Assembly: GCA_018882975.1 (NCBI GenBank)
Contig: VEQZ01000005.1
Coordinates: forward strand, 1 to 45,975
DNA from: Rhodocyclaceae bacterium
GTDB taxonomy: Bacteria > Pseudomonadota > Gammaproteobacteria > Burkholderiales > UBA3065
DNA: 45,975 bases
Direction: 5' to 3'
In this document: piece by piece, positions 12,760 through 27,106 of the stretch
How the letters are laid out: every line of letters begins with the position of its first letter
Position numbering within the stretch: the first letter of the stretch is position 1
Notes under the pieces: model-generated
What the model saw: only the letters and a program-made list of their open reading frames with translations
Databases searched by the model: none
Told to the model about the DNA's origin: nothing
Made by a program: the position numbers and the translations under genes

Positions 12760-13518
12760 TCAGGGGGCCGCCCGCGCCATGGCCACCGCATGCACCGCGG
12801 CCGCACCCGCAGCCCGGGCGGCGGCTGCGAGCGCCAGCAACGACGCCCCGGTGGTCAGCACATCGTCCACCAGCAGCACGTGCCGCCCGCGCAGGTCCGC
12901 ATCCACCCGGTAAGCGCCGGCCACATTCGCCAGCCGCCCTTCGCGGTCGAGGCCCTGCTGGCGCGCAGTCAGGCGGGTCTTGGTCGCCGCCAGCAGCGGC
13001 GGTCGTCCCGGCAGCAGCGGCCGCAGCGCGCGTGCCATTACCGCCGCCGGGTTCTCGCCGCGCTCGGCCAGACGCGTGCGATGCATCGGCATGGCGATGA
13101 GCGCATCGACCGCCGGCAAGCGACCCGCCACGCGAGCCGCCCACAGCCGCGCCACCGTGGCATGGCCGCCATACTTGAAGGCGAGCACCACGCGGTCGGC
13201 CGGCTCGACGTAGCGCCAGAGGGTGAGTGCGGTAATTCCAGTGCCGCTCTCCGTCACGGCGGGCCTTTCTCGGGTCGCCTCTTCTCGCTCCCGCTCGCTT
13301 CGCTCGAAGGTCGCAGCGAAGAGCCTCCCCTGCAACGGCCCGCCCTCCGCGTCAGCGGCCAGGACCTCCGCCCCCGGCTGCTGCTCCGGCAACTCGGCCA
13401 GACACGCCGGGCAGAGTGCTTCGCGCGCACCGCCGGCGCACAGCAGGCACGCGCCCGGTAGCCAGAACTGTTCAATTAATGAGCAGATCGTATCGCGCAG
13501 CGCCGTCGATATTGACAT
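12760..13518 (-). CDS. comF: ComF family protein (phosphoribosyltransferase-like)
   Basis: ComF proteins support natural transformation. They pair an N-terminal zinc finger with a type-I phosphoribosyltransferase fold. Visible features are two CxxC-type pairs (CLLC near residue 24 and CPAC near 36), FKYGGH near 115, and the PRPP-binding motif [13 protein letters not shown] near 215. The start is the first in-frame ATG (13518, MSISTALRD). An upstream GTG at 13566 is possible. Between GRLFAATFE and the YGG motif there is an Arg/Glu-rich stretch ([17 protein letters not shown]) that is not part of the usual ComF core and looks inserted. The gene is divergent from bioB, with 62 bp between starts. 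Confidence 0.88.
13234..13308 (-). repeat. Possible in-frame insertion element inside comF
   Basis: The DNA encoding ~25 residues rich in Arg and Glu ([17 protein letters not shown]) has a purine-run, quasi-repetitive composition: GAGCGAAGCGAGCGGGAGCG and its neighbours on the minus strand. It splits the normal spacing between the ComF zinc finger and the phosphoribosyltransferase domain while keeping frame. It resembles small dispersed repeats that insert into coding regions. Only one copy is visible in this window, so its repeat nature is unproven. Confidence 0.3.
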
Positions 13519-13580
13519 TGCGCTCGCCGCCCCAGACACTCCGCCCCCAATTCCCGTTCCTTGCACCTGCGCGCTCCCCC

Positions 13581-14585
13581 ATGGACTCCGTCACCGCTCC
13601 GCCCGCGGCTTCTGCCGAGTCAGCCGCGGGAGCCGCCCAGCCCGCCGGCCGCTGGACCCGCGACGCCATCCTCGAACTGCTCGAGCTGCCCTTTGCTGAT
13701 CTGCTCTGGCGCGCGCAGACCGTGCACCGCCAGCATTTCGACGCCAACCGCGTGCAGCTGTCCCAGTTGCTTTCGATCAAGACCGGCGGCTGCCCCGAGG
13801 ACTGCGGCTACTGCCCGCAGGCGGCGCGTTACCACGCCGGTGTCGATGCCACGCCGCTGCTGCCGCTGGAGCAGGTTGTCGCCGCCGCCACCGCCGCGCG
13901 CGAGGCCGGCGCCACCCGCTTCTGCATGGGCGCAGCATGGCGCAGCCCGAAGGATCGCGATATCGAGCAAGTGACCGAGATGGTCCGTGCCGTCGCTGAC
14001 CTCGGTCTCGAGACCTGCGTCACCCTGGGCATGTTGCGTGACGGTCAGGCCGAGCGCCTCAAGGACGCCGGCCTCGACTACTACAACCACAACCTCGACA
14101 CCGCGCCCGAGTTCTACGGGCAGGTCACCTCCACCCGCGACTACCAGGACCGCCTCGACACCCTCGAGCGCGTGCGCGACGCCGGCATCCACGTCTGTTG
14201 CGGTGGCATCCTCGGCATGGGCGAGAGCCGTTCGCAGCGCGCCGGGCTCATCGCGCAACTGGCCGCGATGCACCCGCAGCCGGAGTCGGTGCCGATCAAC
14301 AATCTGGTGCGCGTCGAGGGCACGCCGTTGGCCAGTGCCGACCCGCTCGACCCGCTGGAGTTCGTGCGCACCATCGCCGCCGCGCGCATTGCCATGCCGC
14401 GCAGCCGCGTGCGCCTGTCGGCCGGCCGCGAAGAGATGAGCGACGAGATGCAGGCGCTGTGTTTCCTTGCCGGCGCCAACTCCGTGTTCTACGGTGAGCA
14501 GCTGCTGACCACCCCCAACCCGCGCGCGCAGCGCGACCGCGAGCTGTTCGCGCGCCTGGGCATGAGCACCGATGCAGGTCACTGA
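13581..14585 (+). CDS. bioB: Biotin synthase
   Basis: BioB is a radical-SAM enzyme inserting sulfur into dethiobiotin. The 334-residue product has the radical-SAM cluster motif C71-x3-C75-x2-C78 ([12 protein letters not shown]), then [34 protein letters not shown] and [12 protein letters not shown], and the conserved RLSAGREEM containing the [2Fe-2S] arginine ligand. An Ala/Ser-rich N-terminal extension of ~20 residues precedes the core. No Shine-Dalgarno is evident before the ATG at 13581. It heads an operon bioB-F-H-C-D in which every junction overlaps. I saw no BirA-type operator (TTGTAAACC dyad) in the 62 bp upstream. Confidence 0.98.
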
Positions 14586-15825
14586 CCTCCCGCGCAGCAG
14601 CCTGCCGGGCTGGCTGCAGGCGGCCCTCGCGCCGCCGCCGGAGGCGTCGCGCCGCTGTCGCACCACGGTGGACGCGCTGGCCGGTGCGCGCGTGACCGTG
14701 GCCGGCGAGACGCTGGTCAATTTTGCCGGCAACGACTACCTCGGCCTTGCTGGCGATGCGGCCTTGTGCGCGGCTGCCACCGCCGGGATCGCACGCTGGG
14801 GGGTGGGCGGCACCGCCTCGCACCTGCTCAGCGGCCACACCCGCGCCCACCAAACCGCCGAGGAGCACGCCGCCGCCTGGCTCGGCTTTGCGCGCGCCTT
14901 GCTCTTCTCCAGCGGCTATCTGGCCAACTTGGCGGTGGTCACGGCGCTGGCTGGACGCGGCGCCACGCTCTACGCCGACCGCCTCAACCACGCCTGCCTC
15001 AACGACGCCGCGCGGCTCTCCGGCGCGCGTCTGCGCCGCTACCGTCACGCCGACCTCGAAACGTTGGCGGCCTGGCTGGCGGCCGACCCGGCGCCGCAGA
15101 AGTGGGTGCTCACCGACGCCGTCTTCAGCATGGACGGCGACATCGCCCGCATCGACCGCCTGCTCGACCTGTGCCGCCGCTTCGATGCCATGCTGCTGAT
15201 CGACGACGCGCATGGCTTTGGCGTGCTCGGTGGCGGGCGGGGGACGCTGCATGAACCGGCTTTCGCGCCGGCGGTGTTCCGGCACGGCATGGCCGACCCG
15301 CGGGTGGTGCTCATGGTCACGCTCGGCAAGGCTGCCGGCGCCGCCGGCGCGCTGCTGCTGGGCGCCGCGCCGCTGATCGAGGCGGTGGTGCAGCGAGGCC
15401 GCAGCTACATCTACACCACCGCCTTGCCGCCTTCGCTGGCCGAGGCGGCGACGGCCTCGCTGCAGCGCCTTGCTGACGCCGACTGTGACTTTCGTCGCGC
15501 CCAGCTTCTGGCCATGGCGGCCGAACTGCGGCAATCTCTCGTCCGCGCCGGTATCCCGTGTGGGCCGCTGGCCGATGCCCCCGACCCGGGCGTGGCGCCG
15601 GCTTTGCCGCCGACGCCCATCGTGCCGGTGCTGCTCGGCAGCGATGCACGCGCGCTCGCAGCGGCCGCCGCGCTGCGTCGCTGTGGGGTCTGGGTGCCGG
15701 CCATTCGTCCGCCGACGGTGCCGGCCGGAACTGCGCGGCTGCGCGTGAGTCTCTCCGCAGGCCACGGCGAGGGCGACCTCGCCAAACTGATCAATGTATT
15801 GAAGGAGTTGTTCTGTAATGGCTAA
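14572..15825 (+). CDS. bioF: 8-amino-7-oxononanoate synthase
   Basis: BioF condenses pimeloyl-ACP with L-alanine using pyridoxal phosphate. The 417-residue product has [10 protein letters not shown] (51-60), [16 protein letters not shown] (79-94), the PLP-stacking histidine H140 in [10 protein letters not shown], the cofactor Asp/His motif [10 protein letters not shown] (208-217) and the Schiff-base lysine K253 in [11 protein letters not shown]. It is somewhat longer than the usual ~385 residues. Its start lies 14 bp inside bioB without a Shine-Dalgarno, pointing to coupled translation. Its end overlaps bioH by 8 bp. Confidence 0.97.
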
Positions 15826-16558
15826 TGCCCTGCCCACCTGGATCTTTCTGCACGGATGGGGGAGCAGCGCCGCGGTCTGGCGACCAGTGTGCGAGCGCCT
15901 CACGCGCACCCACCAGTTCGAGACTCCGGATCTCTTCGATCTGGCGCCGGATGCCGGGATCGACAGCATGGTCGCGGCCCTGCACGCGCGGTACCCGGGC
16001 CCGGTGGCGGTGTGCGGTTGGTCGCTCGGCGGCATTTACGCGCAAGCCTGGGCGCTGGCCCATCCGGAGCAGGTCCGCCGGTTGGTGCTCACCGCCACCA
16101 CGCCGAGTTTCCTGCGCCGTGACGATTGGCCCTACGGCATGTCGCGCCACGAGCTCGACACCTTCACCGCGTTCTTCGAGGCCGACCCGCGCGAGACGCT
16201 CAAGCGCTTCGCCGCGCTCGGCGTGATGGGCGGGCGCGAGACCTCGCCGGCGGCCGGCGAGGTGCTGCGCGAGGCCGGGCGTTTCGCCATCGAGCATCAG
16301 GGTTTCCTCCGCGCCGGCCTGCGCACCTTGGCCGAAGCCGACTTTCGCGGGCGCATTCCGACGCTCGATTGCCCGGTCGATGTGGTGCACGGCGGCCTCG
16401 ACCGCATCGTTCCAGTGGAGGTCGGCGAGTGGCTGGCCAACAGGCTGCCGCGCGGTTGCCTGACGCGCTGGGACGACGCTTCGCACGTGCCCTTCCTCGC
16501 CCGTCCGGACGCGTTCGCGCTGCTCATCGACGCCTACGGCGACGACCGCGATGTCTGA
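15818..16558 (+). CDS. bioH: Pimeloyl-ACP methyl ester carboxylesterase
   Basis: BioH hydrolyses the methyl ester of pimeloyl-ACP, ending the disguised fatty-acid route begun by BioC. The 246-residue alpha/beta hydrolase has the oxyanion motif FLHGWGSS (10-17), nucleophile S69 in CGWSLGG, the acid in GGLDRIVP and the histidine in DASHVPFLA. AAGGAG lies about ten bases before the ATG. It overlaps bioF by 8 bp and bioC by 8 bp. Having bioH inside the bio operon, rather than unlinked as in E. coli, makes the BioC-BioH pathway assignment firm. Confidence 0.95.
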   Translation: MANALPTWIFLHGWGSSAAVWRPVCERLTRTHQFETPDLFDLAPDAGIDSMVAALHARYPGPVAVCGWSLGGIYAQAWALAHPEQVRRLVLTATTPSFLRRDDWPYGMSRHELDTFTAFFEADPRETLKRFAALGVMGGRETSPAAGEVLREAGRFAIEHQGFLRAGLRTLAEADFRGRIPTLDCPVDVVHGGLDRIVPVEVGEWLANRLPRGCLTRWDDASHVPFLARPDAFALLIDAYGDDRDV

Positions 16559-17411
16559 TCTGGCGGGCGTGCAGCGTGCCTTCGGGCGCGCCGCACGCCG
16601 CTACGACGCAGCCGCCGTGCTGCAGCGTGAAGTCGGCAGCCGCATGCTCGAACGGCTCGATTACATCCGGCTGCAGCCGCAGCGCATCGTCGATCTGGGC
16701 TGCGGTACCGGCGCCTGGCTCGGCCCGCTGCGACAGCGTTTTCGTGGCGCCGACGTCACCGGCATCGACCTCGCCCTGCCGATGCTGCAGACCGCTGCCG
16801 CGCGCGACACGTTCTGGCGTCGGCTGCTCGCCCGCCCTTCGGCGACGCTGGTCTGCGCCGGCGCCGAGGCACTGCCCTTGCCGAACGGTAGCGCCGACCT
16901 GGTCTGGAGCAATTTGATGCTGCAGTGGCTGCCCGACCCGCAGCCGGCCTTGGCCGAGGCCTGGCGCGTGCTGCGCCCGGGCGGTCTGGTGATGTTCAGC
17001 ACCTTCGGCCCCGATACCCTGCGCGAACTGCGCGAGGCCTTTGCCGGAGGCGGCCATGCGGCGGTGAACCGCTTCGCCGACATGCACGATATCGGCGACG
17101 CGCTGGTGCAGCTGCGCTACGCCGACCCGGTGATGGACGCCGAGCGGCTTGAGCTCACCTATGCCGACTTTGACGGCGTGGTGCGCGACTTGCGAGTCAT
17201 CGGCGCCACCCATCTGCACGGCGGCCGCAGCCGCGGCCTCGGCGGCCGCGCGCGCTGGGCGCTGGCACGCCAACGCTACGAGGCGCATCGTCGCGCCGAT
17301 GGCCGCCTGCCGGCCACCTTCGAGGCGGTCTACGGCCACGCCTGGAAGCCGGCCCATGTGCGCGCTGACGGCGCCGCGGTGGTGACCTTCCGCCGCCGCG
17401 CCCCGGCATGA
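16551..17411 (+). CDS. bioC: Malonyl-ACP O-methyltransferase
   Basis: BioC methylates malonyl-ACP so that the fatty acid machinery can build a pimeloyl chain. The 286-residue product has the N-terminal motif VQRAFGRAARRYDAAAVLQ (conserved in BioC), the SAM site IVDLGCGTGAWLGPL near 45-60, and the motif SNLMLQWLPDP followed by WRVLRPGGLVMFSTFGPDTL. The long helical insertion after the core is typical. Start and stop overlap bioH (8 bp) and bioD (ATGA). Confidence 0.96.
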   Translation: MSDLAGVQRAFGRAARRYDAAAVLQREVGSRMLERLDYIRLQPQRIVDLGCGTGAWLGPLRQRFRGADVTGIDLALPMLQTAAARDTFWRRLLARPSATLVCAGAEALPLPNGSADLVWSNLMLQWLPDPQPALAEAWRVLRPGGLVMFSTFGPDTLRELREAFAGGGHAAVNRFADMHDIGDALVQLRYADPVMDAERLELTYADFDGVVRDLRVIGATHLHGGRSRGLGGRARWALARQRYEAHRRADGRLPATFEAVYGHAWKPAHVRADGAAVVTFRRRAPA

Positions 17412-18094
17412 TCCCCGCCCCGCATGGCGGCTGCTTTGTCGTCGGCACCGACACCGGTGTCGGCAAGACGCTGGTCGCCTGCGCGCTGCTGCACGCGCTG
17501 CGCGCTGCCGGCCTGGCGCCACTGCCGATGAAGCCGGTCGCCAGCGGCTCCGAGCCCTCACCCGAGGGGCCGCGCAACGACGACGTGACGCAACTCATCG
17601 CCGCCAGCGGCCGCGACCTGACGCAGGACGAGGTCGCGCCGTTCCGCTACTTGCCGCCGATCGCGCCGCACATCGCCGCTGCCGAGGCCGGCCAGCCGAT
17701 CGACCTTGAACATCTGGTGGCGCTCGCCGCGCAATTGGCGCAGCGAGGTCCGCTGGTGGTGGAGGGCGCCGGCGGTTTCCTGGTGCCCATCGACGCGCAG
17801 CGCACTCTGGCCGATCTGGCCGCCGCGCTCGGTCTGCCCATGGTGCTGGTGGTCGGCATGCGACTGGGCTGCCTCAATCATGCGCTGCTCACCGCCGAGG
17901 CCCTCGCCGCACGCGGCCTGCGCCTGGCCGGTTGGGTCGCCAACGGGATCGATCCGCAGTTCGAACGCGCCGAAGCGAACCTCGCCACGCTCGCCGCGCG
18001 CCTCCCGGCGCCTTTGCTGGCCGCCGCGCCATGGTCGGCCTCGCCCGACCCGGCAGCGCTCGCCGCTACCTTGCGCTTGCCGGCACTGGCCTGA
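17408..18094 (+). CDS. bioD: Dethiobiotin synthetase
   Basis: BioD closes the ureido ring of dethiobiotin from 7,8-diaminopelargonate, CO2 and ATP. The 228-residue product has the P-loop GTDTGVGKT (13-21), the substrate motif MKPVASGSE (~41) and the second magnesium/ATP motif VEGAGGFLVP (~119). It ends the bioBFHCD operon. bioA (diaminopelargonate aminotransferase) is not in the window and must be elsewhere for the pathway to be complete. Its ATG overlaps the bioC stop. Confidence 0.97.
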   Translation: MIPAPHGGCFVVGTDTGVGKTLVACALLHALRAAGLAPLPMKPVASGSEPSPEGPRNDDVTQLIAASGRDLTQDEVAPFRYLPPIAPHIAAAEAGQPIDLEHLVALAAQLAQRGPLVVEGAGGFLVPIDAQRTLADLAAALGLPMVLVVGMRLGCLNHALLTAEALAARGLRLAGWVANGIDPQFERAEANLATLAARLPAPLLAAAPWSASPDPAALAATLRLPALA

Positions 18095-18385: not shown

Positions 18386-18868
18386 ATGCCCTGCTCGCTG
18401 GCAATCGAGAACGGAGTCCTGACAGCCATGGGGCGACCGAACGATGCACTCGGGCGACGGGGTCGCATGTGGGTCATGGTTTTTCTGTCGGTGTTTTGCA
18501 TGTTGGTGGGCACCGCTTGGACCGTGATCGGCGCATGGCCGGTGCTGCCCTTCGCCGGGCTGGAGGTGCTTTGTCTTGCCGGGGCATGGTTGTACATCTC
18601 CTGGCACGCCGACGACTACGAGTACGTGGTCATCGGCGAGGGCAGGGTGGCGGTGGACCTGCGGCGGGGCACGCGGGTTGAGCGGCACGCGTTCCAGATT
18701 CCGTGGACGCGGGTGGTGACGGAGCAGGAGGAGGCGGGACGGTGTCGCGTCAGGTTGCAGTCGTCGGGGCGCGATGTGGAGGTTGGGGTCTGGTTGCCGC
18801 CAGACCGCCGCGGCGATTTCGCCGAGGCGCTCCGCAGACACCTCCGCGCCTCCGGATCGTCGGCCTGA
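18386..18868 (+). CDS. DUF2244 family membrane protein
   Basis: A 160-residue protein with two predicted transmembrane helices (~residues 29-47 and 51-70, MVFLSVFCMLVGTAWTVIG and the stretch after PVLPFAG), followed by a soluble domain with YEYVVIGEGRVAVDLRRG. This architecture and its place directly before coxB fit DUF2244, a family of unknown function often found at the head of cytochrome c oxidase loci. The start may instead be the ATG at 18428, which has GGAG 11 bases upstream. The first ATG has no Shine-Dalgarno. A role in oxidase biogenesis is inferred from position only. Confidence 0.75.
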   Translation: MPCSLAIENGVLTAMGRPNDALGRRGRMWVMVFLSVFCMLVGTAWTVIGAWPVLPFAGLEVLCLAGAWLYISWHADDYEYVVIGEGRVAVDLRRGTRVERHAFQIPWTRVVTEQEEAGRCRVRLQSSGRDVEVGVWLPPDRRGDFAEALRRHLRASGSSA

Positions 18869-18911: not shown

Positions 18912-20081
18912 ATGAGCAGCAAGTGGAAGTGTCTGGTCGCCGTGCTGGCGGCCATCGTCCCGGCGGTGGTCTTCGCCGACTACACATGGAACTTTCCGGA
19001 ACCGGCGACACCGCTCGCTTTGGACACCCTGAATGTCCACAATAAATTCATGATCATCACCATCGTGATCTTTACCGCGGTGCTGGCGATCATGTTGTAT
19101 TCGATGGCCGTGCACCGCAAAAGCGCGGGCCACAAGTCGGCCGATTTCACCGGTCCGAAGAACCGCAAGCAGCTGATCTGGACGCTGGTGCCGTTCGCCA
19201 TCCTGCTCTACATCGACTTCATCCTCATGGGCATCCCGGCAGCGCATTCCATTTTCATGATGGAAGACACCAAGACCAATGCGCAGATGGTGCTCAAGGT
19301 CACCGGTAGCCAGTGGAAGTGGCAATACGAGTTCATCGACGGCGATGCTCAGGGCATCAAGTTCGTCAGCAACCTGACCACGCCGCAGGACCAGCTCTAC
19401 AAGGGCGCACCCAAGGGCGAGCACTACCTGCTCGAGGTCGATAACGAATTGGTGCTGCCGACCAACAAGAAGATCCGCGTGCTGCTCACTGCCACCGACG
19501 TCATTCACAACTGGTGGGTGCCGCAGTTCGGCGTGGCGCGCGACGCCATCCCCGGTTTCCTGCGCGAGACCTGGCTCGAGATCGAGAAGCCCGGCATCTA
19601 CCGCGGTCAGTGCAAGGAGCTCTGCGGTCGCGGCCATGGCTACATGCCGGTGGTGGTCCGCGCCGTGCCTGAGGAAGAGTTCAAGACCTGGGTGGTGGCC
19701 AAGAAGGAAGAGGCCAGCAAGCTCGCCGCCGCCGCCGACAAGGAATGGTCGAAGGACGAGCTGATGGCCAAGGGTGGCGAGGTCTACAACAAGATCTGTG
19801 TGGTCTGCCACCAGGCCAATGGCCAGGGCCTGCCGCCCGCCTTCCCGGCCTTGGCCGGCAGCAAGGTGGTCAACGGTCCGGTGGTCGATGCCAGCGGTCA
19901 CCTCATCAAGGACAGCCACCTTGACCGCGTGCTCAACGGCAAGGCCGGTACTGCCATGCAGGCTTTCAAGAACACGCTCTCCGATGCGGAGATCGCCGCG
20001 GTCGTGACCTACGAGCGCAATTCCTTTGGCAACACCATCGGCGGGATCATTCAGCCGACCCAGGTGGCGGGTCTCCGCTGA
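18912..20081 (+). CDS. coxB: Cytochrome c oxidase subunit II with fused C-terminal cytochrome c (caa3 type)
   Basis: Subunit II takes electrons from cytochrome c through the CuA centre. The 389-residue product has a signal peptide, two transmembrane helices (~46-65 and ~90-110), and a cupredoxin domain with CuA ligands H199, C234, C238, H242 and M245 (GQCKELCGRGHGYM). The aromatic entry region is GSQWKWQYEF. A cytochrome c domain follows from ~284, with heme site C296-x2-C299-H300 and a likely distal Met near 349. Odd point: the conserved Glu before the second helix (K-pathway entrance, three residues before Trp in LEIAWT-type motifs) is Gln87 (RKQLIWT). GGGAGA precedes the start. It is the first structural gene of the oxidase. 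Confidence 0.97.
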   Translation: MSSKWKCLVAVLAAIVPAVVFADYTWNFPEPATPLALDTLNVHNKFMIITIVIFTAVLAIMLYSMAVHRKSAGHKSADFTGPKNRKQLIWTLVPFAILLYIDFILMGIPAAHSIFMMEDTKTNAQMVLKVTGSQWKWQYEFIDGDAQGIKFVSNLTTPQDQLYKGAPKGEHYLLEVDNELVLPTNKKIRVLLTATDVIHNWWVPQFGVARDAIPGFLRETWLEIEKPGIYRGQCKELCGRGHGYMPVVVRAVPEEEFKTWVVAKKEEASKLAAAADKEWSKDELMAKGGEVYNKICVVCHQANGQGLPPAFPALAGSKVVNGPVVDASGHLIKDSHLDRVLNGKAGTAMQAFKNTLSDAEIAAVVTYERNSFGNTIGGIIQPTQVAGLR

Positions 20082-20110: not shown

Positions 20111-21724
20111 ATGTCGACCGGATCCGCAGCGGCACACGACCACGCGCACCACGACCATGATGCCCATCACGGTCCCTCCGGGCTGGCGCGTTGGCTGTTC
20201 ACCACCAACCACAAGGACATCGGGACCATGTACCTGATGTTCTCGATGATCATGTTCCTGATCGGCGGCTCGCTGATCCTGAGCGTGCGCGCCGAGTTGT
20301 TCCAGCCCGGCATCCAGATCATCCAGCCCGAGCTGTTCAACCAGCTCATCGGCCTGCACGCGCTGGTGATGATCTTCGCCGCGCTGATGCCAGCCGCCAC
20401 CGGCTTTGCCAACTGGATGCTGCCACTGCAGATCGGCGCCCCCGACATGGCCCTGCCGCGGCTTAACAACTGGGGCTTCTGGCTGCTGCCGCCGGCCGGC
20501 ACCATCCTGCTCATGCCACTGGTGCTGTACTTTTTCGGCATCGGTACCGGCGGCGCGGATGCCGGCTGGACGCTCTATCCGCCGCTGTCGACGCAGAGCG
20601 GCTGGGGCATCGACTTCGCCATCCTGGCGCTGCACCTGATGGGTATCTCGTCGGTGATGGGCTCGATCAATGTGGTGGTGACCATCCTCAACATGCGTGC
20701 TCCCGGCATGACCATGATGAAACTGCCGATGTTCGCCTGGGGCTGGCTGATGACCGCCTTCCTGCTCATCGCCACCATCCCGGTGCTGGCCGGCGCCATC
20801 ACCATGCTGCTGACCGACCGTCACTTTGGCACGCATTTCTTCAGCGCCGCGGGCGGTGGTGACCCGATCCTGTTCCAGCACCTGTTCTGGTTCTTCGGCC
20901 ACCCCGAGGTCTATATTTTGCTGCTGCCGATCTGGGGCTTCATCCCGCACATCCTCGAAACCTTCGCGCGCAAGCCCATGTATGGCTACAAGGCGCAGGT
21001 GTGGTCGCTGGTGTGTATCGCCGCGCTGTCGGTGATCGTCTGGGCGCACCACTTCTTCACCGCCGGCATGCCGGTGCAGGCGCTGCTGTACTTCATGTAC
21101 AGCACCATGTCGATCTCGCTGCCCTTGGCGGTGCTGTTCTTCTGCTGGATCGCCACCATCTGGCGCGGCTCGATGACCTTCGAGACGCCGATGCTGTTTG
21201 CCCTCGGCTTCATCATCCTGTTCGGCATTGGCGGCCTGACCGGCCTGGTGCTGGCTGACGTGGCGGCGGACGCGCAGTACCACCACAGCTACTTCGTGGT
21301 GGCGCACTTCCACTACACCCTGTTCGCCGGCGGCATCATGGGCGTGATGGCGGGCGTCTACTACTGGCTGCCGAAGATGACCGGCCACATGTACAACGAG
21401 AAGCTCGGCAAGGCGCACTTCTGGCTCACCGCGATCTCGTTCAACCTGACCTTCATGCCGCAGTTCTTCGTCGGTCTGGCTGGCATGCCGCGCCGCATCC
21501 CGGACTACGCGCTGCAGTTCACCGAGTTCAACATGATTTCGACCATCGGCGCGTTCGCCCTCGGTCTGTCGCAACTGATCTTCGTCTACAACGTCGTGAC
21601 CACCTGGCGCGGCAAGGGCGAGAAGGCCAGCGACGGCGTTTGGGAAGGCACCAAGGGTCTGGAATGGCAGCTTTCCAGCCCGCCGCCGCACCACAGCTGG
21701 GATCCCCAGCCGGTGATCAAGTAA
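20111..21724 (+). CDS. coxA: Cytochrome c oxidase subunit I (aa3/caa3, K-pathway residues replaced)
   Basis: This is the catalytic, proton-pumping heme-copper subunit (537 residues, 12 helices; His-rich cytoplasmic N-terminus). Low-spin heme a ligands are H83 and H401, heme a3 H399, and CuB H264, H313 and H314, with the cross-linked Tyr268. D-pathway residues are intact: D112 in IGAPDMALPR, N101, N119/N120, and E266 in HPEVY. By contrast, the K-pathway is not: positions equivalent to R. sphaeroides S299, T359 and K362 are P279, L339 and L342 (SLPLAVLFFCW instead of the usual VPTGxKxFxW). The offset of 20 to that numbering is constant across the conserved ligands of this region, so the alignment is ungapped. 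AAGGAG precedes the ATG. Frame is intact throughout. Confidence 0.97.
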   Translation: MSTGSAAAHDHAHHDHDAHHGPSGLARWLFTTNHKDIGTMYLMFSMIMFLIGGSLILSVRAELFQPGIQIIQPELFNQLIGLHALVMIFAALMPAATGFANWMLPLQIGAPDMALPRLNNWGFWLLPPAGTILLMPLVLYFFGIGTGGADAGWTLYPPLSTQSGWGIDFAILALHLMGISSVMGSINVVVTILNMRAPGMTMMKLPMFAWGWLMTAFLLIATIPVLAGAITMLLTDRHFGTHFFSAAGGGDPILFQHLFWFFGHPEVYILLLPIWGFIPHILETFARKPMYGYKAQVWSLVCIAALSVIVWAHHFFTAGMPVQALLYFMYSTMSISLPLAVLFFCWIATIWRGSMTFETPMLFALGFIILFGIGGLTGLVLADVAADAQYHHSYFVVAHFHYTLFAGGIMGVMAGVYYWLPKMTGHMYNEKLGKAHFWLTAISFNLTFMPQFFVGLAGMPRRIPDYALQFTEFNMISTIGAFALGLSQLIFVYNVVTTWRGKGEKASDGVWEGTKGLEWQLSSPPPHHSWDPQPVIK

Positions 21725-21734
21725 GGGGCCGCGC

Positions 21735-21848
21735 GTGGACACGCACCTGCAAGACCCCGCGCGCAGCCGGCGCATCGCCATCGTCCTCGCGGTGGTGGCG
21801 GTGGCCTTCTACATCGGCACTTTCCTCTTCTGGGCGCCGCAGCCGTGA
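21735..21848 (+). CDS. Small membrane protein between coxA and ctaG (cytochrome oxidase small assembly protein-like)
   Basis: A 37-codon GTG-initiated frame encodes a basic N-terminus (DPARSRRIA) followed by one hydrophobic helix (IVLAVVAVAFYIGTFLFW). It starts 10 bp after the coxA stop, and its own stop overlaps the GTG of ctaG (GTGA). Many betaproteobacterial cox loci have such a tiny gene here, annotated as a small assembly protein. Its function is not established. The single membrane helix and tight coupling to ctaG favour a real gene. AAGGGG precedes the start. Confidence 0.7.
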   Translation: MDTHLQDPARSRRIAIVLAVVAVAFYIGTFLFWAPQP

Positions 21849-22402
21849 GTGACGCCGCCGTCCGCAGCCAGGCCAATCGCAGGCTCGCCCTGCGCTTGCT
21901 GGGTGGCGTGGCGGCAGCCTTTGCATTCGGCTTTCTGCTGGTGCCCCTGTATGACGTGATCTGCGATGTCACCGGCCTCAATGGCAAGACCCGCGGCACC
22001 GCCGTGGCGATGGCCGAGACGCAGGTCGACACCAGTCGCACGGTGCAGGTCGAGTTCATCAGCGCCACCATGCCGGGCATGCCCTGGGAGTTCAGCGCCG
22101 GCCAGCCGCGTGTCAGCGTGCACCCCGGCGAGATCACCACGGTGCACTTCCGCGTGCGCAACATGACCGCCTCGACCATCACCGGGCAGGCCGTCCCGAG
22201 CGTCAGCCCGGGCAAGGCCGCGTCCCACCTGCAAAAGCTCGACTGTTTCTGTTTCAAGCAGCAGACGCTGGCGCCCGGAGAAGTCCGTGACATGCCGGTG
22301 TCTTTCATCGTTGACCGTCGTCTGCCCGACGATGTCAGCGCCCTGACCCTGTCGTACTCGTTTTTTGCCGTGGACGCCGCCGCCGGCGGCAGCCGCAGCT
22401 GA
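21845..22402 (+). CDS. ctaG: Cytochrome c oxidase assembly protein CtaG (Cox11)
   Basis: Cox11/CtaG delivers copper to the CuB site of subunit I. The 185-residue product has a single N-terminal membrane anchor (~16-35), the conserved C40 after the helix (VPLYDVICDVTGLNG) and the copper-binding CFCF motif (C134/C136 in KLDCFCFKQQ). It ends with a periplasmic immunoglobulin-like fold. It is GTG-initiated, overlapping the stop of the preceding small gene. A gap of 83 bp separates it from coxC. Confidence 0.96.
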   Translation: MSDAAVRSQANRRLALRLLGGVAAAFAFGFLLVPLYDVICDVTGLNGKTRGTAVAMAETQVDTSRTVQVEFISATMPGMPWEFSAGQPRVSVHPGEITTVHFRVRNMTASTITGQAVPSVSPGKAASHLQKLDCFCFKQQTLAPGEVRDMPVSFIVDRRLPDDVSALTLSYSFFAVDAAAGGSRS

Positions 22403-22485: not shown

Positions 22486-23346
22486 ATGAGCGACTCACAC
22501 GCGCACAGCGCCGGCAGCTATTACGTTCCGTCGCACAGCCACTATCCGTTCACCCTGGCGCTCGGTCTGTTCGCCCTCGCGCTCGGCTTCATCTTCAACA
22601 TGAACGGCAAGGTCCCGGGCTGGGCCATGCTCCCCGGCACTGCGGTGATCCTCTACGTGGTCTGCGGCTGGTTCGGCGATGTCATCCGCGAGAACCGCTC
22701 CGGCACCTTCAAGGGCTGGGAAGACCGCGCCTTCCGGCTCGGCATGCTCTACTTCATCGGCTCCGAGGTGATGTTCTTCGCCGCGTTCTTCGGTGCGCTG
22801 TTCTACGTGCGCAACCTGGCGGTACCCGACCTGCTGAGTTTCGACTTGCTCTACCCGACCTTCGAGGGAAGTTGGCCGCTCGCCGGCAAGGGGCCGAGCA
22901 CCGACATCCCGGCCTTCACGCCGATGGGCGCTTGGGGTCTGCCGGCGCTTAATACCGCGCTTCTGCTCACCTCGGGTGTGACGGTGACCATCGCCCACTG
23001 GGCGCTGCTGCGCGACAACCGCACCTGGCTCATCCTCGGACTGGCGGCCACCGTGCTGCTCGGCGCAGCGTTCATGGTCTGCCAAGGCATCGAGTACCAC
23101 CACGCCTACACCGAACTGGGCCTGACGCTCGGCAGCGGCGTCTACGGCGCCTCGTTCTTCATGCTCACCGGCTTCCACGGCCTGCATGTAACCATCGGAG
23201 CGATCATCCTGGCGGTGGTGCTCGGCCGCGCGCTGCGCGGGCACTTCAGCAGCAAGGACCACTTCGCCTTCGAGGCCGCCGCTTGGTACTGGCACTTCGT
23301 CGACGTCGTCTGGCTGGGCTTGTTCGTGTTCGTCTATTGGCTGTGA
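22486..23346 (+). CDS. coxC: Cytochrome c oxidase subunit III
   Basis: Subunit III stabilises subunit I and supports proton uptake into the D pathway. The 286-residue product shows the seven-helix pattern, with the conserved signatures RLGMLYFIGSEVMFFAAFF, QGIEYHHA, GFHGLHVTIG and the C-terminal AAAWYWHFVDVVWLGLFVFVYW (cited as a match). The Glu of FIGSEVMFF corresponds to the family's buried carboxylate near the proposed O2 channel. GGGGAGA precedes the ATG. Confidence 0.97.
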   Translation: MSDSHAHSAGSYYVPSHSHYPFTLALGLFALALGFIFNMNGKVPGWAMLPGTAVILYVVCGWFGDVIRENRSGTFKGWEDRAFRLGMLYFIGSEVMFFAAFFGALFYVRNLAVPDLLSFDLLYPTFEGSWPLAGKGPSTDIPAFTPMGAWGLPALNTALLLTSGVTVTIAHWALLRDNRTWLILGLAATVLLGAAFMVCQGIEYHHAYTELGLTLGSGVYGASFFMLTGFHGLHVTIGAIILAVVLGRALRGHFSSKDHFAFEAAAWYWHFVDVVWLGLFVFVYWL

Positions 23347-23434: not shown

Positions 23435-23635
23435 CTACATCGGCACGCGCGACTGCAGCAGACCCGATTGGAAGCCGACGATCAGCAGGACGAAGAGCAG
23501 CACGGAGAGCCCGATGCGCAGGGTGAGCGCGCGCACGGTCCTCTCTCCGCCGTTGCGGTCGCGGAACAGGAACAGCGCGGCGGACAACAGGCTGCCGATG
23601 ATCGCGGCCAGCATGAGCAGGATGATCACTTTCAC
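23435..23635 (-). CDS. Twin-transmembrane protein (DUF2909 family)
   Basis: A 66-residue protein with two hydrophobic helices (VIILLMLAAIIGSLLSAALF and LRIGLSVLLFVLLIVGF) joined by a short charged loop (RDRNGGERTVRALT). DUF2909 proteins of this kind are commonly embedded on the opposite strand within betaproteobacterial cox loci, between coxC and SURF1, as here. Start is GTG at 23635, with GAGG eight bases upstream. Function unknown. Orientation opposite to the surrounding operon suggests independent expression from the 63-bp divergent gap. Confidence 0.75.
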   Translation of the reverse strand: MKVIILLMLAAIIGSLLSAALFLFRDRNGGERTVRALTLRIGLSVLLFVLLIVGFQSGLLQSRVPM

Positions 23636-23698
23636 GGGTCCGTCCTCGAGGGTGGCGGCCGGGCGGCCGCGTCCGGAGCATTATCGGGTTGCCGCACC

Positions 23699-24553
23699 GT
23701 GACCGCAAACCTCGCGTTGCGCGCGCGCCCCCGCCTGTTCCGGCCGTCGATGCTGTCCACCTGCCTGATGGTGGCGCTGGTGCCGCTGTTCATCAGCCTT
23801 GGCGACTGGCAGTACGGCAAGGCGCAGGACAAGATCGCGCGGCAGGCGGCGCTGGAGCGACGCCTCGCCGGCCCGGTGCTGGACCTGGCAGACCTCGGCC
23901 CCGCACGAACCGGCCTTCGCCAACCGGCTGCCGGCGAATCCGCTCCGGGCGGACGCGACGCCGCTCTCCCCGACATCGAATACCGTCCGGTGCGCCTGCA
24001 TGGCAGGTGGGAGGCGGCAGAGGGCTTCCTGCTCGACAATCAAGTGTTCGATGGCCAGGCCGGCTACGCCGCCATCGCACCCCTCCGCCTCAACGGCGGC
24101 GGTGTGGTGCTGGTCAACCGCGGCTGGGTGGCGGCGCCCGCCGACCACCGCGAGGTGCCGGCGGTGGCGCCGCTGGCGAGCGCGACGTTGCCGTCCGCGG
24201 AGCGGTCGGGCGCCGGGCCAGCCGCCACCGCAGCGACGGTCAGCGTCAAGGGCCTTGCCGTGGCGCTGCCGCGCCCCGGCCTGCAACTGGCCGGGGCCAG
24301 CAACGCCGGTGCGGTGCACGCCTTTATCGATGCGTCGGCGCTCGCCGCGCGATTCGGTGCGCCGGTGGCAGGCTGGATGCTTATCCTCGACCCCGACGCG
24401 CCGGATGCGCTGCGCGTGCAGTGGCCGCAGCCGGCCGAACGGGTGCACACCAACCTGGGCTACGCCTGGCAATGGTTCGGCTTCGCCGTCGCCGCCATCG
24501 GCATCTGGCTGTGGCAGGGCTGGCGCCGCGCCCGCGAAGGGGGTGCGACATGA
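23699..24553 (+). CDS. SURF1 family oxidase assembly protein
   Basis: SURF1 proteins (Shy1 in yeast) help insert heme a into subunit I. The 284-residue product has two flanking membrane helices (~19-34 and ~255-273) and the family motifs LGDWQYGKAQDK after the first helix, FLLDNQVFDGQAGY with VLVNRGWV in the middle, and HTNLGYAWQWFGFA before the last helix. It starts at GTG 23699; an in-frame ATG within the first helix is too late. Its stop overlaps the next start (ATGA). Confidence 0.9.
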   Translation: MTANLALRARPRLFRPSMLSTCLMVALVPLFISLGDWQYGKAQDKIARQAALERRLAGPVLDLADLGPARTGLRQPAAGESAPGGRDAALPDIEYRPVRLHGRWEAAEGFLLDNQVFDGQAGYAAIAPLRLNGGGVVLVNRGWVAAPADHREVPAVAPLASATLPSAERSGAGPAATAATVSVKGLAVALPRPGLQLAGASNAGAVHAFIDASALAARFGAPVAGWMLILDPDAPDALRVQWPQPAERVHTNLGYAWQWFGFAVAAIGIWLWQGWRRAREGGAT

Positions 24554-25125: not shown

Positions 25126-26025
25126 ATGACCAGCCTCACCCAGAGCCTCAACCTGCAGTTCGCCGCCGTCAGCGTCCGCAACTTCTACATCCTCTGCAAG
25201 CCAAGGGTGACCGGGCTCATCGTCTTCACCGCGGTGATCGGCATGCTGCTCGCCATGACACCGGAGACCTCGTGGGTCACGCTGCTGGCGGCCACGGTGG
25301 GCATCGGTTTGGCGTCGGGGGCTGCGGCCGCCTTCAACTGTATGGTCGAGCAACAGATCGACGCGCGCATGCAGCGCACCCGCCACCGCCCGACCGCTCG
25401 CGGCGACGTCACCACGCCGGCGACCCTGCTGTTCGCGATGCTCACTGGTGTCACCGGCTTGGCCGTTCTGCACACCTGGGTCAACGATCTGACCATGTGG
25501 CTGACCTTGGCCACCTTCGTGGGCTATGCGGTCGTCTACACCATCTTCCTCAAACCGGCCACGCCGCAGAACATCGTCATCGGTGGCGCGTCGGGCGCCA
25601 TGCCGCCGGTGCTCGGCTGGGCGGCGGTGACCGGCACCGTGACGCCCGAGGCGCTGGTGCTGTTCCTCATCATCTTTCTTTGGACGCCGCCGCACTTCTG
25701 GGCGCTGGCGCTCTACCGCCGCGACGACTACGCTAAGGTCGACATGCCGATGCTGCCGGTGACGCATGGCGAGAAGGTGACGCTGGTGCACATCGTCGGC
25801 TACACCGTGATGCTGGCGCTGGCTGCCTTCATGCCGGTGACCATGGGCATGGCCGGCTGGGTCTATCTGGCCGCCGCGGTGGTGCTCAACGGCCTGTTCC
25901 TCGGCTATGCCATCCGCCTCTACCAGCACTACACCGATGCGTTGTCGCGCGAGATGTTCCGCTACTCCATTGTTTACCTCGCGGCGACCTTTGCCGCGCT
26001 GCTGGTGGACCGCGCGCTTGCCTGA
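25126..26025 (+). CDS. ctaB: Protoheme IX farnesyltransferase (heme O synthase)
   Basis: CtaB/CyoE attaches a farnesyl chain to heme b, making heme O, the precursor of heme A. The 299-residue product is a polytopic UbiA-family prenyltransferase. It shows the first polyprenyl-binding motif [15 protein letters not shown] (71-85) with Asp79, the second [16 protein letters not shown] (~200), and the typical KPRVTGL start of the first helix. GGAG precedes the ATG. It is followed by ctaA, the next enzyme in the pathway. Confidence 0.96.
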
Positions 26026-26119: not shown

Positions 26120-27106
26120 ATGTTCAGCCTGACCAGTCGCGCCGCAGCCCTGCTCGCCTTGTGCGTGGTGGTGCTCGGCGCTTACGTTCGCATTCACGAC
26201 GCCGGCCTCGGCTGCCCCGACTGGCCGGGTTGTTACGGGCAACTGGTGGGCGTGCCGGAAGCCTCCCACGAGATCGCTGCCGCCGAAGCCGCCTACCCCG
26301 GCAGTCCGGTCGAGACCGGCAAGGCGTGGAAGGAGATGGCGCACCGCTACCTCGCCGGTGCGCTGGGACTTGTCATTCTCGGCTTGGCTGTGGTCGCCTT
26401 GCTGCAACAACGCCCCGCGCGTCGCCTGCTGGCGACGACCTGCGTGGTGGTGCTGGCCCAGGCGACCCTCGGCATGCTCACCGTCACCGAGTTGCTGCGG
26501 CCAGGTATCGTCACGCTGCACCTGATCGGCGGCATGACCACGCTCGCCCTGCTCACCGCCGCCGCGGCGGTGTCGATGCCCGCAGGTGCCAACTGGCGTC
26601 TGAGTCAACGCCCCGAGTTGCGTCCCTTCGTGTTGGCGGCCCTCGTCTTGTTGACCGTGCAGATCGTGCTCGGCGGCTGGGTGAGCACCAACTACGCCGG
26701 GCTTGCCTGTACCGACCTGCCGACCTGCCACGGGGCATGGTGGCCGGCCATGGATGCAACGGGCTTCGACCTGACGCGCGAACTGCACATGGACGGCGAT
26801 GGCCAACCCATCGGTGGCACCGCGCTGGTGGCGATCCACTGGGCACACCGCCTCGGCGCGGTGGCTGCCACGCTGGGGGTGCTGCTGTTGGCGCAGCGCT
26901 TGCTTCGCGCCGGCTTGGGCGCATGGGCCGCCTGGCTCTGCTTCCTGCTGCTGGCGCAACTCTCGCTCGGCATCGCCAACGTCCTGCTGCACCTGCCGGT
27001 GGTGCTGGCCGCGGCGCACAACGCCGGCGCCGCGTTGCTGCTCATGACGCTGGTCTGGTTGCTGGCGGCCGGTCAGCCAGCGCGCGAGCGGAGGGTGTTT
27101 CTGTGA
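26120..27106 (+). CDS. ctaA: Heme A synthase (COX15/CtaA)
   Basis: CtaA oxidises the C8 methyl of heme O to a formyl group, giving heme A. The 328-residue product has eight predicted helices in two similar halves and the four conserved heme-ligand histidines: AHRYLAG, TLHLIGG, IHWAHRLG and AAHNAGA. The N-terminal IHDAGLGCPDWPGCYGQ and the CTDLPTCHG loop supply the cysteine pairs. It has no Shine-Dalgarno. Its stop overlaps the GTG of the SCO gene. Confidence 0.95.
   Translation: MFSLTSRAAALLALCVVVLGAYVRIHDAGLGCPDWPGCYGQLVGVPEASHEIAAAEAAYPGSPVETGKAWKEMAHRYLAGALGLVILGLAVVALLQQRPARRLLATTCVVVLAQATLGMLTVTELLRPGIVTLHLIGGMTTLALLTAAAAVSMPAGANWRLSQRPELRPFVLAALVLLTVQIVLGGWVSTNYAGLACTDLPTCHGAWWPAMDATGFDLTRELHMDGDGQPIGGTALVAIHWAHRLGAVAATLGVLLLAQRLLRAGLGAWAAWLCFLLLAQLSLGIANVLLHLPVVLAAAHNAGAALLLMTLVWLLAAGQPARERRVFL

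Follow-up and report, generated by a model that had tools for sequence, protein, structure and literature searches.

Sequence comparison places the caa3-type cytochrome oxidase encoded in a 45,975-nt stretch of DNA from a Rhodocyclaceae bacterium (contig VEQZ01000005.1; this whole analysed stretch is termed the window) in a betaproteobacterial clade that lacks the lysine of the K-pathway. The enzyme is probably a functional A-family oxidase that lost its K-pathway once, in the clade ancestor, and would take its protons through the D-pathway. Judged from the residues checked, the loss appears to span the whole K-pathway in both core subunits of the clade, except for the cross-link tyrosine and, in Glu-type members, the entrance glutamate of subunit II. 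The relevant features are given below, with residues of subunit I (CoxA) aligned to R. sphaeroides (Rs) CoxA, 1m56_A.

18912..20081, plus strand: coxB, subunit II with CuA domain and C-terminal cytochrome c (TIGR02866, Pfam domains, CuA and heme c motifs)
19170..19172, plus strand: Gln87, codon CAG, K-pathway entrance position (R. sphaeroides Glu101-II)
19206..19220, plus strand: five-residue insertion LYIDF in TM helix 2 of CoxB, residues 99-103, found in the K-less clade only as compared with K-retaining CoxB
19215..19217, plus strand: Asp102, acidic TM2 residue invariant across the clade, 15 positions past Gln87 (sequence comparison)
19611-19625, plus strand: CuA motif CKELC in CoxB
19797-19811, plus strand: heme c motif CVVCH in CoxB
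20111..21724, plus strand: coxA, subunit I of the A-family heme-copper oxidases (TIGR02891, 679.1 bits, cut-off 670.75)
20444..20446, plus strand: Asp112 (Rs D132), D-pathway entrance, kept (alignment)
20906..20908, plus strand: Glu266 (Rs E286), D-pathway top, kept (alignment)
20912..20914, plus strand: Tyr268 (Rs Y288), active-site cross-link tyrosine, kept (alignment)
20945..20947, plus strand: Pro279 (Rs S299), K-path residue lost (alignment to 1m56_A)
20996..20998, plus strand: Gln296 (Rs M316), near the start of helix VII, clade-diagnostic (sequence comparison)
21125..21127, plus strand: Leu339 (Rs T359), K-path residue lost (alignment to 1m56_A)
21134..21136, plus strand: Leu342 (Rs K362), K-path lysine lost (alignment to 1m56_A)
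21284..21286, plus strand: His392 (Rs D412, the Mg-site Asp), changed (alignment)
21845..22402, plus strand: ctaG/cox11 assembly protein, same operon (PRK05089, 225.6 bits)
22486..23346, plus strand: coxC, subunit III (PF00510)
23468..24553, plus strand: SURF1 assembly factor, a mechanical ORF whose true start is probably further in (PF02104, residues 103-341)
25126..26025, plus strand: ctaB, heme o synthase (TIGR01473, 316.6 bits)
26120..27106, plus strand: ctaA/cox15, heme a synthase (PF02628, 231.8 bits)

The A-type (A1) definition in PMC3084760 names, in P. denitrificans numbering, the D-channel residues D124, N199, N113, N131, S134, S193, E278 and Tyr35, the K-channel residues Lys354, Thr351, Ser291 and Tyr280, and the cross-link tyrosine of helix VI (Tyr-I). 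The window CoxA retains all the D-path residues compared (Rs N121, D132, N139, S200, S201, N207 and E286), the cross-link tyrosine within GHPEVY, and intact HPEVY and HH metal-site motifs. Of the K-channel, the tyrosine alone is left, and the other positions carry Leu, Leu and Pro; the changes in subunit I to which the earlier note had referred (S299P, T359L and K362L relative to 1m56_A) are thus all present. Neither does the protein follow the B-/C-type pattern of alternative Ser/Thr/Tyr at the K-channel positions and an absent D-channel, since its D-channel is present and its K positions hold Pro, Leu and Leu. Under the PMC3084760 definition, the window CoxA is best described as a K-less variant by descent and not as a full A1 member. 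A further change concerns His472 (Rs), which is invariant in K-type enzymes and is Phe in all K-less loci (window codon 21464-21466).

The CoxB reading frame scores 165 bits against TIGR02866 (cut-off 147.7) and contains the COX2_TM, COX2 and C-terminal cytochrome c Pfam domains; together with the CKELC and CVVCH motifs, these supply the CuA site and the C-terminal heme c expected of subunit II in a caa3-type oxidase. Gln87 stands three residues before Trp90 (codon 19179-19181), and in profile alignments it faces the K-path Glu of the P. denitrificans and bovine subunits II (RKQLIWT against PIEVIWT and EVETIWT), as the earlier note had proposed for the K-pathway entrance. The TM2 insertion with Asp102 marks the whole K-less clade and arose on its stem branch: the Asp is found in 96/96 K-less vs 0/115 K-retaining CoxB, and the 115 K-type proteins have no acidic residue at all across the 21 positions that follow the entrance Glu.

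Profile and Pfam searches of the region identified DUF2244, coxB, coxA, ctaG, coxC, SURF1, ctaB, ctaA and an SCO1 domain; the heme synthesis genes ctaA and ctaB are located in the oxidase operon. The DUF2244 gene lies at 18386-18868, and a run of biotin synthesis genes (bioB-, bioF-, bioH-, bioC- and bioD-like, judged by eye) adjoins the operon upstream at 13416-18094. The window belongs to a fragmented 1.95 Mb assembly (106 contigs, 91% complete), the closest named relatives of which are betaproteobacterial MAGs. The second COX1-family gene of this genome is a ccoN of the cbb3 type, and a bd oxidase was not detected at 91% completeness.

A scan of genome contigs combined with whole-genome searches collected 98 loci with Leu/Met at Rs 362, Leu at 359 and Pro at 299, some of them near duplicates fetched via two routes, so that the counts refer to loci and not to independent genomes. 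They include isolates of Methylobacillus, Methylovorus, Methylophilus, Methylotenera, Zoogloea and Sulfuricella, as well as many MAGs, and among the sampled genomes the clade is restricted to the order of the window (Methylophilaceae, Zoogloea, Sulfuricella and the window genus). An oxidase of close type (at least 70% identity, with the K362 state read separately) was detected in 18/399 genomes of this order and, among 398 genomes sampled across the phylum, in the window genome alone; no clade member was found on plasmids, where the best matches reach at most 63%. Position 299 is Pro in all K-less loci and Ser in 118/118 K-retaining ones, and position 316 is Gln in 100% of K-less and Met in 100% of K-type proteins. 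K-type enzymes conserve 145 CoxA positions at 98% or more; the K-less clade has a different residue at 14 of them, nine of which fall within Rs 291-366 around the former channel (Fisher p 8e-5, indicative only, as this boundary was picked after inspection of the position list). Estimates of dN/dS within the window genus, 0.06-0.07 for CoxA and 0.09-0.13 for CoxB, indicate strong purifying selection on both subunits. One CoxA of the same genus is split in two frames (L006, G001:C74:35768-37371), probably by a frameshift or an assembly error.

The K-less enzyme is the sole CoxA match in 14/14 listed K-less genomes outside the window genus, and most K-less genomes have no second close CoxA. Every K-less genome examined encodes at least one additional COX1-family gene, and in none of 36 genomes searched was the K-less enzyme the sole COX1-family oxidase. 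In Methylophilaceae bacterium MTYP, Methylobacillus sp. MM3 and Methylotenera versatilis 7 (L235, L236 and L237), it occurs beside a canonical K-type oxidase with Glu. Another member of the window genus (G003, 98% complete) has no K-less oxidase, which indicates that the enzyme can be lost; this genome encodes a bd oxidase and, besides it, a single COX1-family gene that scores as cbb3-like.

Analysis of CoxA/CoxB pairs relates the state of the entrance residue to that of the lysine. Wherever K362 is retained and subunit II is covered, the entrance residue is Glu (115/115 pairs) and never Gln (0/115), and Gln was likewise absent at this site among bo3-type and other K-bearing relatives; a wide occurrence of Gln beside a retained lysine, which would have spoken against the earlier note, is thus not observed. 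Glu loss therefore appears only where the lysine is lost. The clade predicted to combine loss of the CoxA lysine with Gln in CoxB does exist among the 98 K-less loci: the 96 pairs with the entrance site covered divide into 42 with Gln, spanning several families, and 54 with Glu, of the Methylotenera/Methylophilus type, and the non-Glu state of this clade is always Gln (42/42). The Mg-site position 412 is His in 41/42 Gln-type and Asn in 54/54 Glu-type loci, and a basal K-less member (L124) combines the entrance Gln with Asn at 412. The earlier view of coordinated remodelling rather than error is secure with respect to remodelling, given Gln in 42/96 K-less loci of several families, but a strict Lys/Glu coupling fails with Glu in the remaining 54/96.

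Trees were built from a reduced set of 27 K-less and 34 K-type members with the key columns removed. The K-less clade is monophyletic (SH-aLRT 99 for CoxA, 100 for CoxB, and 100/100 for the joint tree), the Glu-type is nested within the Gln-type, and a constraint of Gln-type monophyly is rejected (AU p 0.00012). Glu was thus regained without Lys, and the Lys/Glu coupling is not obligatory. The simplest history is a Glu-to-Gln change on the stem alongside the K loss, followed by one reversal to Glu in Methylophilaceae while the Lys position stayed Leu/Met. On this same stem branch subunit I acquired S299P, T359L and K362L and subunit II acquired E101Q, together with further changes around the former channel (F295W, F311Y, M316Q, A319S and the CoxB TM2 insertion with Asp102). 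The loss in the second subunit had been called independent; instead, the Lys and Glu losses share one stem branch and count as one event in the clade and two in all. The term 'coordinated' suits this branch but does not hold generally.

The other event is found in distant A-family relatives, here named the K362Q lineage (L219, L222, L229, L232, L233 and L239-L268), relatives of which are carried on plasmids of Roseomonas, Alteromonas, Shinella and Dinoroseobacter. This lineage is considered separate from the betaproteobacterial clade because it is ~40% identical to the window CoxA, as compared with at least 60% identity of the clade to K-type CoxA. Like the window enzyme, it is without Lys on the K-path and Glu in subunit II; unlike that enzyme, it has Gln at 362, mostly keeps S299 and T359, differs in the D-path, with V/I/M in place of N121 and E in place of N207, and shows no TM2 Asp insertion among the sequences seen. 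Its subunit II TM2 starts, for example, as WIIGGGLILP, and its entrance site, seven residues before the TM2 proline, holds Ile, Val, Leu, Ala or similar where scorable, at a position that is Glu in canonical, bo3-type and most other K-bearing relatives. L219, L267 and some other loci could not be aligned on this proline, and no Glu is found near it in the two named ones. In a combined tree with Glu states assigned by hand from sequence segments (0 for K362Q rows, 1 for K-bearing rows, including L230 and L234, which read LERW and LETW without an anchoring proline), two changes of Lys and three of Glu are reconstructed, and Lys without Glu occurs in 0/92 sequences. The exact placement of the K362Q and bo3-type groups in this tree is unsure, in view of a long-branch warning, but the separation of the K362Q lineage from the betaproteobacterial clade is independent of that placement. 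The two K losses are in line with the earlier note, but a sign test on independent K losses has only two pairs, with which significance is unreachable. The CoxA reading frame of the K362Q lineage is mostly long, which suggests a fusion with another subunit.

The window oxidase resembles the canonical proteobacterial caa3/aa3 CoxBA and the R. sphaeroides aa3 enzyme (1M56) in family and score (TIGR02891, TIGR02866), D-path, Glu286 and cross-link Tyr, and also shares with canonical A1 enzymes the metal-ligand motifs, CuA, the fused heme c and the operon. It differs from them in i) the absence of CoxA S299, T359 and K362 and of CoxB E101, and ii) the five-residue TM2 insertion with Asp102, the D412 to His and the H472 to Phe replacements. 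The same positions have been altered by mutagenesis in the R. sphaeroides K362M structure (3OM3) and in the E101-II mutants (PMC10095113), where Glu101-II is critical for the K channel. A single lesion impairs these mutants, whereas the window enzyme is natural, selected and carries all the changes at once. In model enzymes the K-path Lys is required for heme a3 reduction and one proton, and the D-path serves the rest (PMC12901375). Since K319M (bovine numbering) blocks heme a3 reduction in these enzymes (PMC12901375), a K-less oxidase would need compensation. Sequence comparison establishes that the losses occurred and arose once, that the D-path, Glu286, Tyr288 and the CuA motif are intact, that selection is purifying, that the set of assembly genes in the operon is complete and that Glu later returned without Lys. 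The enzyme would further be expected to reduce O2, with all protons, including the O-to-E proton delivered by the K-path in model oxidases, entering via the D-path, and Gln87 would mark an entrance that leads nowhere any more.

It is also possible, though less likely than not, that Gln87 reflects nothing coordinated but a relaxed constraint, with Glu drifting after the loss of Lys362, an explanation that is compatible with D-pathway supply. The one return of Glu without Lys and the variable site of the K362Q lineage agree with such drift, which, if free, would not preserve Gln in 42/42 non-Glu betaproteobacterial K-less loci across families and long branches. An unlikely alternative in our assessment is that the K-path was re-routed, with new proton input from clade-specific polar residues (CoxB Asp102; CoxA Gln316, Ser319, Tyr311, Ser351 and Cys365 in Rs numbering) and Gln87 in an altered wall. 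The distribution of Asp102 and its origin on the same branch speak for this route; however, the old channel core is now Leu, Leu, Phe and Pro, Asp102 lies 15 residues past the entrance along TM2, and no structure puts a new residue beside Tyr288. An AlphaFold2 model, built from a natural in-frame CoxB-CoxA read-through (L034 and 17 K-less relatives, with stop codons read as Gly), was unusable (pLDDT 45.5, pTM 0.36). It seems quite unlikely that the K-pathway was replaced by a new proton-handling element centred on the invariant TM2 Asp of subunit II, a route unseen in any studied oxidase.

Loss of a pathway deemed essential in model enzymes might suggest that the protein is not an oxygen reductase, but an NO reductase-like or decaying enzyme. 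This is highly improbable in view of the intact Tyr288, Glu286, HPEVY, HH, CuA and heme c motifs, the strong purifying selection and the complete assembly operon. The fragmented state of the assembly could raise the suspicion of a sequencing or assembly error or a pseudogene, to which we assign a practically negligible probability: the same residues are present in isolates of Methylobacillus, Methylovorus, Zoogloea and Sulfuricella and in many MAGs. Error or pseudogene status is refuted by these relatives with identical residues.

Losses of the K-path in family A have been published already in general terms; under one scenario, PMC8239418 counts seven of them. The open-access literature searched yielded no description of a K-less caa3 clade in betaproteobacteria that combines the subunit II loss with a newly gained Asp in TM2.

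The K-pathway has been treated as necessary in A-family oxidases, as heme a3 can no longer be reduced when the Lys is mutated (PMC12901375) and the Glu of subunit II has been called critical (PMC10095113). The K-less clade represents a selected and widespread enzyme in culturable methylotrophs, such as Methylophilus methylotrophus, which makes one-pathway proton supply and its compensation directly testable. Comparison of Gln-type with Glu-type K-less enzymes offers a natural experiment confined to the entrance residue, and the three genomes with both oxidases (L235, L236 and L237) provide a natural paired comparison of K-less and K-type enzymes within one genome. Finally, the clade may reveal how such an oxidase runs on the remaining channel.
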